Of a stretch of DNA of 64,000 nucleotides, positions 42,013 to 46,109 are shown one piece after another. The stretch's first letter is position 1, and every line of letters begins with the position of its first letter. Both the position numbers and the translations under genes were made by a program. This DNA is from Gordonia hongkongensis (lineage in GTDB: Bacteria > Actinomycetota > Actinomycetes > Mycobacteriales > Mycobacteriaceae). Below the pieces are notes generated by a model. The model was not told the DNA's origin and made no database searches. It worked only from the letters and a program-made list of their open reading frames with translations. Where the stretch lies: NCBI RefSeq assembly GCF_023078355.1, contig NZ_CP095552.1:3472001-3536000 (forward strand). The letters run 5' to 3'.

Positions 42013-42303
42013 TCAGGCGAGTGTGAGGAAGAGCTTCTCCAGCTCTGCCTCGGTCAACGGCGGTTGCTCACCGTCAACGGTCTCGATGCACTGCCGCATT
42101 CCCGAGGCCACGATCTTGAAACCGGCGCGGTCGAGCGCACGGGACACCGCGGCGAGCTGTGTGACGACGTCCTTGCAGTCGCGCCCCGCCTCGATCATCG
42201 CGATCACACCGGCGAGCTGCCCCTGCGCTCGGCGTAGACGGTTGAGGACGGCACTCATCGCATCGTCGCCGACGGCCACGTGGGGCCTCTTGTCATCGGC
42301 CAT
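42013..42303 (-). CDS. CsoR/CstR-like transcriptional repressor
   Basis: 96 residues of the CsoR (DUF156) family of four-helix repressors. [20 protein letters not shown] is the family helix. The two reactive cysteines are Cys43 and Cys72, 29 residues apart as in CsoR and CstR. The position of the Cu-ligand His in CsoR (25 after the first Cys) is Gly68 here. That argues against a Cu(I) sensor and favours a thiol or persulfide sensor like CstR, or another ligand. It is divergent from the MMPL gene across 127 nt holding two matching palindromes. The frame is open upstream but ATG 42303 gives the family length. Confidence 0.85.
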
Positions 42304-42366
42304 CGAGGCCTCCTCGCTGTCGTGCACCACCGACGTCCGGTTGGGTGCTGAATTCTTGACGTCAAG

Positions 42367-42382
42367 ATACCCCCATGGGTAT
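42367..42382. promoter_or_regulatory. CsoR-family operator, copy 1
   Basis: ATACCCCCATGGGTAT has ATACCC and GGGTAT as inverted arms, like the AT-flanked, G/C-centred operators of CsoR-family repressors. It is placed between a TTGACG (42356-42361) and a TATGTT (42380-42385) that make a plausible plus-strand promoter with an 18-nt spacer, so binding would block polymerase. Confidence 0.65.
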
Positions 42383-42398
42383 GTTGGCCGCCAGACGG

Positions 42399-42414
42399 AT
42401 ACCCCGAGGGGTAT
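42399..42414. promoter_or_regulatory. CsoR-family operator, copy 2
   Basis: ATACCCCGAGGGGTAT is an inverted repeat with 7-nt arms and a 2-nt centre, 16 nt before the MMPL start. It is 32 nt (about three helical turns) from copy 1, so two repressor tetramers could bind the same face. Confidence 0.7.
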
Positions 42415-42430
42415 ATACGAAAGGAAATCC

Positions 42431-44593
42431 ATGGCGCCGATCACACCTCTGTCCGACGAGGCGACCACTACCGACCCCGCGGGCTCCCCGCCCGGGGGCC
42501 TCGGCCGGTGGGGTGCGGCCATGGCCGCGCACGCCCGCTGGGTGTTCGGCGTGTGGCTCCTCGTCCTGCTCGTCCTGGGAGCCGCGGCGCCGTCGGTGTT
42601 TTCCGCACTCGCGGGCGCGGGCTGGCAGGCCGACGGGTCGGAGTCCGTGCAGGTCCGCGAGCTGGCTCAGCAACATTTCGGCGGGAACTCGTCGGCAGCG
42701 GTCCATGTGGTCGTCCACTCCGAGCGCGACACGGTCGACGGTCCCGCGATTCGAGAGGTGGTCGGCGAGATCGCTGCACTGGCGGGGACGGACAGCCGGT
42801 TCGCCCAGGTCGTCCCGCCACAGCCCGGCATGTCGATCAGCCCGGACGGCCACACCGGGATCGTCATAGTGGGCGCGGCCGCCGACACCGACGAGATGGT
42901 GCGCGCTGTCGATGAGCACAAGGACGCGTTGATCGCCCTGTCCGGAAACGGGATCGAGGTGTACCCGACGGGTGCCTCGGCCCTGTGGAGCGACTTCAAC
43001 GAGGCCAATCACGACGCGATGATCAAGGCCGAGCTGTTCTCATGGCCGGTCACGCTGACGATCATGGTGCTCGCCTTCGGGTCGCTCGTCGCGGCCGGTC
43101 TCCCATTGTTGCTGACCATCGCCGGTCTCGTCGCATCCGCGGGCGGCCTGGTGTTGTTGAACCAGGTCACCCCGATCTCGGTGTGGGCCATGAACTTCGC
43201 GATGATGTTCGCGCTGGCGCTGGGCATCGACTACGCACTGTTCCTGGTGTCGCGGTTCCGCGACTCGGTCCGGGAGCACGGCGACGACATGCGCGCGGCG
43301 GTGGCGCAGACGATGGACACCGCAGGCAAGGCGGTGTTGCTGTCCGGCATCACGGTTCTGGTGAGCCTGTCGGCCGTGCTGCTGGTTCCGGCACCGGCGG
43401 TGCGCACGATGGCGGTGGGCATCATGCTCGCGGTGGCCTTCGTCCTCGCGGCAACCCTCACTCTCCTACCCGCCGCGCTGGGCGCCCTGAGTGGCCGGAT
43501 CAACGCGGTCTCGCTGCCGTACGCGCGCCGCCAGCAGCACCGATCGCCGGTGTTCGCACGCTGGGGCGGCTTCCTGCAGCGCCATCCGTGGGCTGTCGCC
43601 ACCGGCTCCCTGGTTGTTCTCGTCGCGCTCGCGATCCCGGTCGTCGGGTTGAAGGTCGCTATGCCCTCCATCGGCGTCGTCCCGGCCGACGCGCCCGTCC
43701 GCCAGGGCTATGAACTCGTGCAGTCGCAGATGGGCGAGGGCGCACCGGGGATGCTGCAGATCGTCGCACCCGCCGACGAGGCGCAGCAGGCCGCCGCGGT
43801 CGCGGCGCAGTCCCCGGGGATCACCATGGTCACTCCCGCGACGCCGGCCGCGGACGACTCGGACCTCGTTCTCATGCAGGCTCTTCCGACCGTCGACCCG
43901 TCCGCCGGCCAGATGGCCACAATCGTCGACGACCTGCGTGACGCATTGCCCGACGGCGCTCTCGTCGGCGGCGCGCCCACCGAGAACCTCGACCTGCAGC
44001 ACGCTCTGAACGACTACTTCCCGCTGGTCGTCGCCGTCATTCTCGTCCTCGGTTTCGTCTTGCTGCTGGTGTCACTCCAAGCGCCGCTGATCGCACTCAT
44101 CGGCACTGTGGTGAGCCTGCTGTCCACCGCCGCGGCGTTCGGCGTCGCGAAGCTGATCTTCCAGGACGGGCACCTGGCAGACCTGCTGGGCTTCACACCT
44201 CAGGGATTTCTCGACGGCTGGGCCCCCGTGTTCTTCTTCGCCATGATCTTCGCGATCGCGATGGACTACACCGTGTTCCTCCTCGCCACCGCCAAAGAAC
44301 ACTACGAACGCTCCGGGGATCCATCGACCGCGCAGGTCGACGGCATGGCCCACTCCGGGCGGATCATCTTCGCCGCAGCTGCGGTCATGGTCGCCGTCTT
44401 CTTCACCTTCGCCCTGGCCCAACCACTCCCTCCGAAGGAGATGGGGATCATCCTGGGTGTGGCAGTCCTGCTCGACGCCGTCCTGATCCGCCTCACCCTC
44501 CTGCCGGCGCTGCTACGCATCACCGGCCGGGCGGCGTGGTGGACACCATCCTGGTTGCGCCGGATCCTCCCGTCGATCAGCTTCAAGCATTGA
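42431..44593 (+). CDS. MMPL family RND transporter
   Basis: About 720 residues with the 1+5 and 1+5 membrane layout and two periplasmic domains of MMPL transporters. [20 protein letters not shown] and [20 protein letters not shown] carry the Asp-Tyr proton-relay pairs. MMPL proteins export lipids, siderophores or toxic compounds. ATG 42431 has AAGGAAA upstream; long in-frame sequence before it is antisense to the repressor and not coding. It is the first gene after the twin operators, so expression probably follows the CsoR-like repressor. The substrate is unknown. Confidence 0.9.
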
Positions 44594-44646
44594 CCTCACC
44601 CGAATCGGGTACACGCCCCTTGAGGGCCGACAAGAAAGGACACACG

Positions 44647-45051
44647 ATGTCACTCGCGCTGACCACCACGCTGCCGCACCCCTTCCCGGAGGCGGTCGAA
44701 CGGACCAGAGCCGCGCTCGCCGATCAGGGATTCGGCATCCTCACCGAGATCGACGTCCAAGCGACGCTCAAAACGAAACTCGACGAGGACATGGAGCCCT
44801 ATCTGATTCTCGGTGCCTGCAATCCGCCGCTGGCGCATCGGGCGCTCGGCGTCCACCGGCAGATCGGGTTGCTGTTGCCGTGCAACGTCGTCGTCCGCGC
44901 CGACCCGGGCAACCCCGACCACACGCTCGTCGAGGCGATGAACCCCGACCTCATGGTCCAGGTCTCGGGCGAACCCGACCTCGAACCGGTCGCACGTGAT
45001 GCCGCGGAGAAGTTGCGCGCCGCGATCGATTCCCTGACCGCACAGTCCTGA
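44647..45051 (+). CDS. DUF302 family protein
   Basis: 134 residues. It contains the DUF302 core: FPEAVERTRAALADQGFGIL, then YLILGACNPPLAHRAL and a C-terminal hydrophobic strand pair (LLLPCNVVVRA). The family fold is small alpha/beta with no established activity; genes often lie with thiol or oxidative stress functions. It starts 53 nt after the MMPL stop, with AAAGGA seven nt before ATG. The conserved Cys in LGACNPP could be reactive. Confidence 0.82.
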   Translation: MSLALTTTLPHPFPEAVERTRAALADQGFGILTEIDVQATLKTKLDEDMEPYLILGACNPPLAHRALGVHRQIGLLLPCNVVVRADPGNPDHTLVEAMNPDLMVQVSGEPDLEPVARDAAEKLRAAIDSLTAQS

Positions 45052-45089
45052 ATCCCCTTGCACATCCGCCCGAGACCTCCGGAGTTCTC

Positions 45090-45695
45090 ATGACCCACTT
45101 CGATTTCTACTTCGACCCCGTGTGCCCCTTCGCCTGGGTCGCATCGCGATGGCTCATCGATCGGGCTCAGGCACACGATGCCTCCGTCGACTGGCACGTG
45201 ATGAGTCTGGCCATCCTGAATGAGGACCAGGAGCCGGATTCCGACGAGCAGCGGCAGCAACTCGACACCTCGCGGCGACTCGGACGTGTGTTGATGGCGG
45301 CCGTCGACGAGTCCGGGACCGATTCGCTCGAACCCCTCTATTCGGCGATCGGCCGACGGCTCCACCATGTGGGCGACGAGATGACGCCCGCGGCGGTGTC
45401 GGAGATCCTCGTCGACACCGGCCTCCCCGCCGGCCTGGCCGAGGCAATGGACGACGAGTCGTTCGACGACGCCCTGCGCGCGTCGCATCAACGCAGTCAG
45501 GATGCGCTGGGCGAGGCCGGCGGCAGCCCCATCACCGGGATCGACGGCAACCATTTCTTCGGTCCCGTCCTCTCCGACATCCCGACCGGTGACGAAGCGG
45601 ACGCACTTTTCTCGTCTCTGGTGACGCTCGCGGGCGTCTCGGCATTCGCACAGGTGAAGCGGCCGGCAGGAGGACCTCCGTCGTTCTCGGACTGA
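45090..45695 (+). CDS. DsbA-family protein, mycothiol-dependent nitroreductase (Rv2466c) type
   Basis: 201 residues. A thioredoxin-like fold with a helical insertion starts FDFYFDPVCPFAWVASRW and resembles Rv2466c, a mycothiol-dependent reductase. The active site reads C12-P-F-A15, so the second Cys of CPxC is missing and only a monothiol mechanism is possible. cis-Pro region GSPITGIDG is present. It starts 38 nt after the DUF302 gene in the same direction. A role in mycothiol-linked detoxification is inferred. Confidence 0.8.
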   Translation: MTHFDFYFDPVCPFAWVASRWLIDRAQAHDASVDWHVMSLAILNEDQEPDSDEQRQQLDTSRRLGRVLMAAVDESGTDSLEPLYSAIGRRLHHVGDEMTPAAVSEILVDTGLPAGLAEAMDDESFDDALRASHQRSQDALGEAGGSPITGIDGNHFFGPVLSDIPTGDEADALFSSLVTLAGVSAFAQVKRPAGGPPSFSD

Positions 45696-45770
45696 TCTCG
45701 GCGCGCATCCCGCCCGTCTCCCGCCTACTGTGACGCCGTACAGATGTCCGAAGACGGGAGCGATCGCGAA

Positions 45771-46109
45771 GTGGCGTGGCTTGTCCTGGTGACCGCGGGT
45801 CTGGTCGAGATCATCTACATGGCAGCTCTGGAGAAGTCGAACACCTTCACACGTCCGATGTGGACGGCCCTGTTCATCATCGGGGTGATCGTGAGCATGG
45901 CCGGTGTCGCCTACGCGATCCGCTCGATCCCCCTGGGCACGGCCTACGCGGTCTGGGTGGGGATCGGCGCGGTCGGTACCGCGATCTATGGAATCCTGTT
46001 CCTGCGAGAACCGGCCGGCCTCGCTCGGCTCGGATGCATCTTCCTCATCCTCACGGGTGTCGTCGGACTGAACCTGTTGCACAACTCGGAGGGCGCGGGG
46101 GCGCATTGA
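45771..46109 (+). CDS. Small multidrug resistance (SMR) family transporter
   Basis: About 112 residues with four hydrophobic helices. The essential Glu is in VTAGLVEIIYMAALEKS (TM1), and GTAYAVWVGIGAVGTAIYG (TM3) is the family signature. SMR proteins work as antiparallel dimers exporting cations or guanidinium with protons. GTG 45771, after GGGAG 11 nt upstream, gives a normal N-terminus; ATG 45744 adds nine residues and lacks a ribosome binding site. It is last in the MMPL-DUF302-DsbA-SMR row and convergent with the HNH gene. Confidence 0.88.
   Translation: MAWLVLVTAGLVEIIYMAALEKSNTFTRPMWTALFIIGVIVSMAGVAYAIRSIPLGTAYAVWVGIGAVGTAIYGILFLREPAGLARLGCIFLILTGVVGLNLLHNSEGAGAH

Follow-up and report, generated by a model that had tools for sequence, protein, structure and literature searches.

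The described systems closest to the locus reported here are built around repressors of the CsoR family. CstR of the Staphylococcus aureus cst operon is a two-cysteine repressor (C31 and C60, Cys-X28-Cys) without the metal-site histidine, encoded next to or divergently from its targets. In Enterococcus faecalis CstR the two cysteines are C31 and C62 (PMC9405070; this and the other papers are cited from excerpts). ScCsoR (SCO0620) of Streptomyces coelicolor, which has Cys37 and Cys66, binds a site of 16 base pairs (bp), ATACCn6GGTAT, that occurs twice in the dioxygenase promoter, and polysulfide persulfidates Cys37 and frees ScCsoR from DNA (PMC7533328). Moreover, the SUL module of Antarctic Arthrobacter plasmids combines a CsoR-family regulator and DUF302 in a sulfur-linked cluster (PMC6305408). 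Here, a related locus of Gordonia hongkongensis was analyzed, located at positions 42013-46109 of a 64,000-nucleotide stretch (contig NZ_CP095552.1, positions 3,472,001 to 3,536,000, forward strand), hereafter called the window, in a genome of 5.41 megabases (Mb) and 2 contigs. We consider that this locus is probably an autoregulated CstR-type regulon for sulfane-sulfur (persulfide/polysulfide) stress.

The repressor gene is divergent from four plus-strand genes, encoding MMPL, DUF302, DsbA-like and SMR proteins, with intergenic gaps of 53, 38 and 48 bp among the four. The features of the locus, with protein lengths in amino acids (aa), are as follows.

42013-42303, minus strand: CsoR/CstR-family repressor, 96 aa (PF02583, 81 bits against a cut-off of 22.8)
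42356-42361, plus strand: -35-like element TTGACG of the MMPL promoter (consensus scan)
42367-42382, both strands: operator 1, ATACCCCCATGGGTAT, placed between the -35- and -10-like elements, 3 bp of it shared with the -10-like element
42380-42385, plus strand: -10-like element TATGTT (consensus scan)
42399-42414, both strands: operator 2, ATACCCCGAGGGGTAT, 32 bp from operator 1 and just 5′ of the MMPL start
42431-44593, plus strand: MMPL-family RND transporter, 720 aa (PF03176, 239 bits)
44647-45051, plus strand: DUF302 protein, 134 aa (PF03625), with Cys58 (GACNP) and Cys79 (LPCNV)
45090-45695, plus strand: Rv2466c/DsbA-like protein, 201 aa (PF22234, 176 bits), with a monothiol CPFA motif
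45744-46109, plus strand: SMR transporter, SugE-like (PF00893, 79 bits), accessory

All five proteins were matched by Pfam where a first-pass annotation, made from the sequence alone, had placed them, and its divergent CstR-like repressor with twin operators was also confirmed by the sequence. One promoter-like site was found in the intergenic DNA, against 0.2 expected in shuffles; as a consensus match, it is a predicted promoter. Both palindromes, TTGAC and TATGTT were present in all 9 aligned loci. Allowing at most one mismatch, TACCCCCNNGGGTA gave 3 matches (2 sites) in the window, against a shuffle mean of 0.08. The exact pattern ATACCn6GGTAT, which both operators fit, occurred at 2 sites in the whole genome, both at this locus, and the reversed control gave 0; the twin operators proposed at first thus stand as the sole exact copies in the genome. 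The 16-bp site, the two promoter copies, cysteines 29 positions apart and an actinobacterial host are all shared with ScCsoR (PMC7533328). The ScCsoR circuit, however, comprises a persulfide dioxygenase, a rhodanese and a sulfite transporter, none of which was found at the window locus.

The window repressor carries Cys43 and Cys72 with 28 residues between them, and glycine occupies the position of the copper-CsoR histidine. With CstR proteins it shares membership of the PF02583 family, two cysteines without the metal histidine, and a pseudo-palindromic operator with G/C tracts. Cys-X28-Cys was found in 111 of 112 called repressor copies (window included), and the remaining copy is a shortened call from which the first cysteine is absent. 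Four residues before the second cysteine (C-4), where copper CsoRs have histidine, the 111 copies showed Gly in 104, Asn in 5, Ser in 2 and His in none. The nearest solved chains were PDB 7mq1 and 7mq3, with Asn and Ala at C-4; their records are labelled csoR, and we take them to be Streptococcus pneumoniae CstR and a mutant of it. An S. aureus plasmid protein annotated as CstR has Cys-X28-Cys and Asn at C-4 and adjoins cstA and tauE. The window locus differs from this arrangement in that Gly replaces Asn at C-4, and that the neighbours are MMPL, DUF302 and DsbA-like genes rather than cstA and TauE.

A regulon for copper or another soft metal was also considered, in which the two cysteines would sense Cu(I), DUF302 would bind copper and the remaining genes would serve stress repair. 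The repressor does belong to the CsoR family and a dithiol protein could bind Cu(I), but none of the 111 scorable copies had histidine at the metal-site position, whereas the other two PF02583 proteins of the window genome, which are copper-type paralogs, retain it. With Gly in place of His, the Cys-His-Cys site is lacking, and the window repressor was not assigned to the copper CsoRs. Moreover, a CopA-like gene was present in just 4 loci, and within 4 genes of the repressor or DUF302 in 1 of those. Given the missing histidine and the rarity of CopA-like genes nearby, copper was rejected as the first choice, and we regard it as quite improbable. A tree of 47 rows and 89 columns split the repressor from its own copper-type CsoRs (support 99/99), and was used solely for this split.

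The conservation of the gene set was examined in 61 Gordonia loci, that is, the window and 60 of the 63 other repressor matches (53 genomes; the matches in G042, G045 and G058 were left out). The genus counts were made by tblastn, and caller-based counts differ slightly from them, the gene caller having missed the repressor in L045. In the DUF302-query, operator and gene-linkage counts, repressor, DUF302, MMPL and DsbA-like labels came from profiles built on genus sequences. Within 6 kilobases (kb) of the repressor, DUF302 was found in 58 loci (all but L072, L090 and L094), MMPL in 32, DsbA-like in 19 and SMR in 3. Three gene orders were seen among the 58: MMPL-DUF302-DsbA divergent from the repressor (12 loci, window included), repressor then DUF302 on the same strand (33 loci), and DUF302 then repressor on the same strand (13 loci). 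Close MMPL copies (at least 60% identity) numbered 36 in 59 genus genomes, and 33 of them were located at most 1 kb from the repressor; those away from it were in G009, G010 and G043. After these 36 copies, identity in the MMPL list dropped to 36%. When DUF302 was used as the query, the named loci spanned several actinobacterial genera, and the repressor lay within 5 genes in 60 of the 79. The named loci were the best 80 of at least 586, 9 of them repeating genus loci, and L133 was left out because DUF302 was not called there. The repressor profile at 1e-12 matched 177 of 201 family genomes, the weakest matches being perhaps other CsoR-family proteins.

The first-pass annotation named absence of the joint gene set from other genomes as a refutation, and this did not hold: the set recurs in three genera, Gordonia, Nocardia and Williamsia, and Rhodococcus has it minus DsbA. 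From the four-gene module first proposed, MMPL, DUF302 and the monothiol DsbA-like gene proved to be conserved. SMR, present in 3 of 61 loci, was discarded as a module gene and is regarded as a passenger, which reduces the two exporters of that proposal to one; its best NCBIfam model was SugE at 94.8 bits, under the cut-off of 126. If the genes were chance neighbours, and just the repressor and its own promoter mattered, sporadic partners such as SMR and DsbA-like (19 of 61 loci) would be expected. The pairing of repressor and DUF302 in three orders, the proximity of MMPL copies to the repressor, and the same association recovered from the DUF302 side already contradict this explanation, which is hardly credible. 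On the sequence evidence, the regulon is real and conserved.

The distribution of operators was surveyed over 1.78 Mb in 131 related loci without duplicates, 60 from the genus and 71 from the 80 named ones; the 9 duplicate named loci removed here are still counted in the DUF302-query and neighbour-cluster tallies. Exact ATACCn6GGTAT occurred 176 times, versus 0 for the reversed control. A site was counted as upstream when it was -10 to 250 bp from a gene, and the per-gene counts skip loci without a called repressor or DUF302. Such a site was found upstream of 67/111 repressor, 41/57 MMPL and 8/29 DsbA-like genes. Moreover, it preceded 8/12 MBL-rhodanese, 6/7 rhodanese-YgaP and 5/9 thioredoxin genes, and 30/1313 other genes. 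Paired sites were mostly 32-35 bp apart, about three helix turns. The TauE, MBL-rhodanese, rhodanese-YgaP, YgaP-TM, thioredoxin and SQR labels were assigned by single-sequence phmmer searches.

Similar genes were recovered when unlabelled clusters near the repressor or DUF302 were ranked by genus labels. TauE/SafE carried 7 labels and MBL+rhodanese 6, followed by small YgaP-TM proteins, rhodanese+YgaP membrane proteins and a second MBL+rhodanese type with 4 each, and by CMD-family, thioredoxin and one further cluster with 3 each (the TauE, MBL+rhodanese, rhodanese+YgaP, YgaP-TM and thioredoxin identities come from Pfam on one representative each). The Rhodococcus plasmids pRWAY02 and pRHL3 are collinear, with the order MMPL, regulator, DUF2892, DUF302, TauE and MBL, and pBD2, also from Rhodococcus, has a reshuffled form of it. 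A Mycobacterium adipatum plasmid carries regulator, DUF302, TauE and MBL, without MMPL. The repressor of a Streptomyces goshikiensis plasmid, 79% identical to that of the window, is found with MBL, two rhodaneses, TauE and DUF302. On Paenarthrobacter pTC1, a regulator and DUF302 are accompanied by three rhodanese genes, an MBL gene and thioredoxin; this regulator is annotated just as "unknown function", and has Cys-X28-Cys with Gly at C-4. In Gordonia L072, the repressor and MMPL are found with SQR-like and MBL-rhodanese genes, without DUF302. Judged by these neighbours, the regulator and DUF302 belong to sulfane-sulfur defence. The first-pass annotation had suggested removal of a thiol-reactive or persulfide-related compound. 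The persulfide part is supported by MBL-rhodanese, rhodanese-YgaP and thioredoxin neighbours with the same operator and by TauE neighbours, but not by the window locus itself, which is without a known sulfur enzyme.

The two cysteines of DUF302, a family that Pfam lists without a function, were highly conserved: Cys58 was present in 58/58 genus rows and Cys79 in 57/58, the remaining row having a gap. Translations with stops were kept out of these cysteine counts and of those for the DsbA-like protein. Both were also found in the solved relatives 1j3m and 1q9u, so that the pair occurs beyond this operon as well. DUF302 genes have been reported inside sox clusters of sulfur oxidisers (PMC5037610, PMC11034169). 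The DsbA-like protein shares PF22234 with the Rv2466c/NCgl2478-type DsbA-mycoredoxins, which are also its nearest solved structures. Those enzymes have CPWC or CPFC (PMC8280269), whereas the second active-site cysteine was absent in 19/19 genus rows, the window protein having CPFA. With no CPWC/CPFC dithiol, the protein was not assigned to the full Rv2466c class and is described as Rv2466c-like, monothiol. Rv2466c-type enzymes use a monothiol step when they reduce S-mycothiolated disulfides (PMC8280269), and by analogy the DsbA-like protein could plausibly act on persulfides of mycothiol or on mixed disulfides. Two more Rv2466c-like proteins are encoded in the same genome (L225 and L226, C1 near 2216338 and 4431415), one with CPWC and one with CPFA.

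A number of observations weigh against the sulfane-sulfur reading, and they are considered together here. In a Pfam scan, no recognised sulfur enzyme was found in 42013-46109; with neither a persulfide dioxygenase nor a sulfurtransferase gene in this interval, the locus was not classed with the cst/PDO sulfide-oxidation operons. The MBL-rhodanese protein of L137, which is of the operator-linked type, had no full-length relative in the window genome, although the controls G036 and G059 have one. Partial MBL-only or rhodanese-only matches were present, so this absence applies just to full-length matches to the L137 protein and a stand-alone dioxygenase is possible. The SQR-like gene of the window genome lies 0.2 Mb from the locus, and is 40% identical to the L072 protein. 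An exact-pattern search found no operator beyond the locus in this genome, and a regulon extending past the locus was therefore rejected; with at most two mismatches, ATACCCCNNGGGGTAT matched further places. Among the 131 loci, the site was upstream of just 8/128 DUF302, 1/15 TauE, 1/11 second-type MBL, 3/16 YgaP-TM and 1/4 SQR-like genes, some of which are inner operon genes.

The same holds for the breadth of the association. Among the 60 fetched Gordonia loci, 29 link just the repressor and DUF302 out of the genes sought, and in a phylum sample of 149 genomes at least 10 of 54 DUF302 matches (window included) had a CsoR-family gene within 3 kb. The clade C repressors (L088-L102), which are 43-59% identical to the window repressor, have a different palindrome and no exact ATACCn6GGTAT; TAACCCCC/ATCCCCC palindromes, often twinned, were found upstream of DUF302 or the repressor instead. 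This amounts to an operator shift accompanying repressor divergence inside one genus. In addition, the 89-column tree did not join the repressor firmly to SaCstR, its deep forks being weak and its long branches meeting. Finally, oxidation by Cu(II) or H2O2 weakened the DNA binding of TTHA1953, a sox-gene regulator with two cysteines (C39, C68), and NaHS was without effect on this binding (PMC10318464).

Because TTHA1953 responds to Cu(II)/H2O2 and not to NaHS, and because DUF302 neighbours are varied outside actinobacteria, a broader thiol-stress signal is the main rival. Here the cysteine pair would sense oxidants, quinones, nitro compounds or hypochlorite, MMPL would export a xenobiotic, and the DsbA-like protein would repair mycothiolated proteins. 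MMPL/RND proteins are classic drug and lipid exporters, a background that suits this explanation. Some loci also have genes of the nitroreductase family (a cluster seen in 5 loci, 2 genera) or of the CMD family (13 loci, 3 genera) nearby. In vitro, H2O2 or Cu(II) joined TTHA1953 into dimers through disulfides, after which its DNA binding was weaker (PMC10318464), and Rv2466c-type proteins act on S-mycothiolated disulfides (PMC8280269). On the other hand, the operator-sharing partners of recognisable role are rhodanese, MBL-rhodanese and thioredoxin genes, and TauE (7 labels) and MBL-rhodanese (6) recur across more genera than the nitroreductase and CMD clusters do. On this balance a general thiol-stress or electrophile regulon is unlikely, and sulfane sulfur is preferred as the signal.

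The varied neighbours were seen in 6 plasmids from outside actinobacteria. Copper genes adjoin DUF302 on 2 of them and a heavy-metal ATPase is close to it on 1, again a point against the sulfane-sulfur reading. On the Meiothermus and Phaeobacter plasmids it was beside multicopper oxidase and copper ATPase genes, and on a Mameliella plasmid near a heavy-metal ATPase gene and adjoining a rhodanese gene. An Agrobacterium plasmid had it near a metal/formaldehyde-type repressor, and a Haloarcula plasmid near thioredoxin and copper-binding plastocyanin-type genes. The copper explanation gains from the Meiothermus, Phaeobacter, Mameliella and Haloarcula examples, and it was retained as a rival on account of such copper neighbours. 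The DUF302 genes near metal-ATPase genes are as follows.

L218, 4058-4402: DUF302 near metal-ATPase genes
L219, 3956-4342: DUF302 near metal-ATPase genes
L223, 3944-4330: DUF302 near metal-ATPase genes

On Synechocystis pSYSM (L222, 2221-4351), DUF302 faces a FAD-dependent oxidoreductase gene and an ArsR-family regulator gene. This resembles a sulfide:quinone oxidoreductase locus.

What the sequence shows for the sulfane-sulfur reading is family membership, the cysteine fingerprint, the operators, their presence at sulfur genes of relatives as well, and gene association. From here we infer autoregulation, the inducer, the chemistry of derepression, and the roles of DUF302, the DsbA-like protein and MMPL. 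The reduced repressor would occupy both palindromes, of which the first is inside the MMPL promoter and the second follows closely downstream, and would silence its own gene and MMPL-DUF302-DsbA. A rise in sulfane sulfur, or in another thiol modifier, would persulfidate or bridge Cys43 and Cys72, and the modified repressor would leave the DNA so that MMPL-DUF302-DsbA could be expressed. DUF302 may bind or relay sulfane sulfur via its two conserved cysteines, the monothiol Rv2466c-like protein may use mycothiol and cleave persulfides or mixed disulfides, and MMPL may export the sulfur-loaded product. In the best reading, the MMPL and DsbA-like genes stand where other regulons have dioxygenase and TauE.

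A bolder version of this proposal is that mycothiol-using actinobacteria dispose of sulfane sulfur by a non-oxidative route. DUF302 would collect the sulfur, the monothiol mycoredoxin-like protein would pass it on via mycothiol and the MMPL pump would export it, with no dioxygenase-rhodanese or TauE in the regulon. A relay-and-export route replacing oxidation would fit the window genome, because an SQR-like gene is present but no full-length operator-linked MBL-rhodanese relative. Resting on absence plus analogy, this idea is possible but doubtful. If it is true, a function would be assigned to DUF302 and a new class of cargo to MMPL. In any case, DUF302, a widespread family, is tied to sulfur-detoxification genes by association, by its two cysteines and by the regulator-operator pair, which makes its role directly testable.

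The link of CsoR, DUF302 and sulfur is already in print as an annotation. The SUL module of the Arthrobacter plasmids comprises sulfur dioxygenase, two rhodaneses, TauE and MFS genes besides the regulator and DUF302, and the excerpt lists no MMPL or DsbA-like gene, unlike the window (PMC6305408). The statement of the first-pass annotation that no described system has this gene set was therefore too strong, a cluster of CsoR, DUF302, dioxygenase, rhodanese and TauE having been annotated there. The version with MMPL, DUF302 and monothiol DsbA under the same operator was not found in the searches made of open-licence PubMed Central papers. The dedicated MMPL suggests an export branch of sulfane-sulfur defence, and the same searches brought up no such branch.

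The locus is flanked by proA on one side and, on the other, by a convergent HNH/GmrSD_C-like gene followed by recG. proA adjoins the locus in 9 of the 61 Gordonia loci. In L048, L050 and L051, all from Gordonia, a small gene with an upstream ATACCn6GGTAT site sits between proA and the repressor; in L048 it is YgaP-TM-like by Pfam, and no counterpart was called in the window. A 15-bp tandem repeat at 41806-41865, in the 5′ coding part of proA, gives SDTEK units near the N-terminus of the protein. Further away, a MoxR-like ATPase gene contains a run of 42 C at 39995-40036 that breaks it into two overlapping frames (39594-39995 and 39962-40579), whereas the gene of the relative L043 is a single 314-aa frame; the run may come from misassembly or be a genuine slippage tract. 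At 61290-61549, a long tandem repeat array with units of 48-51 bp perhaps encodes a lysine/alanine-rich protein tail.

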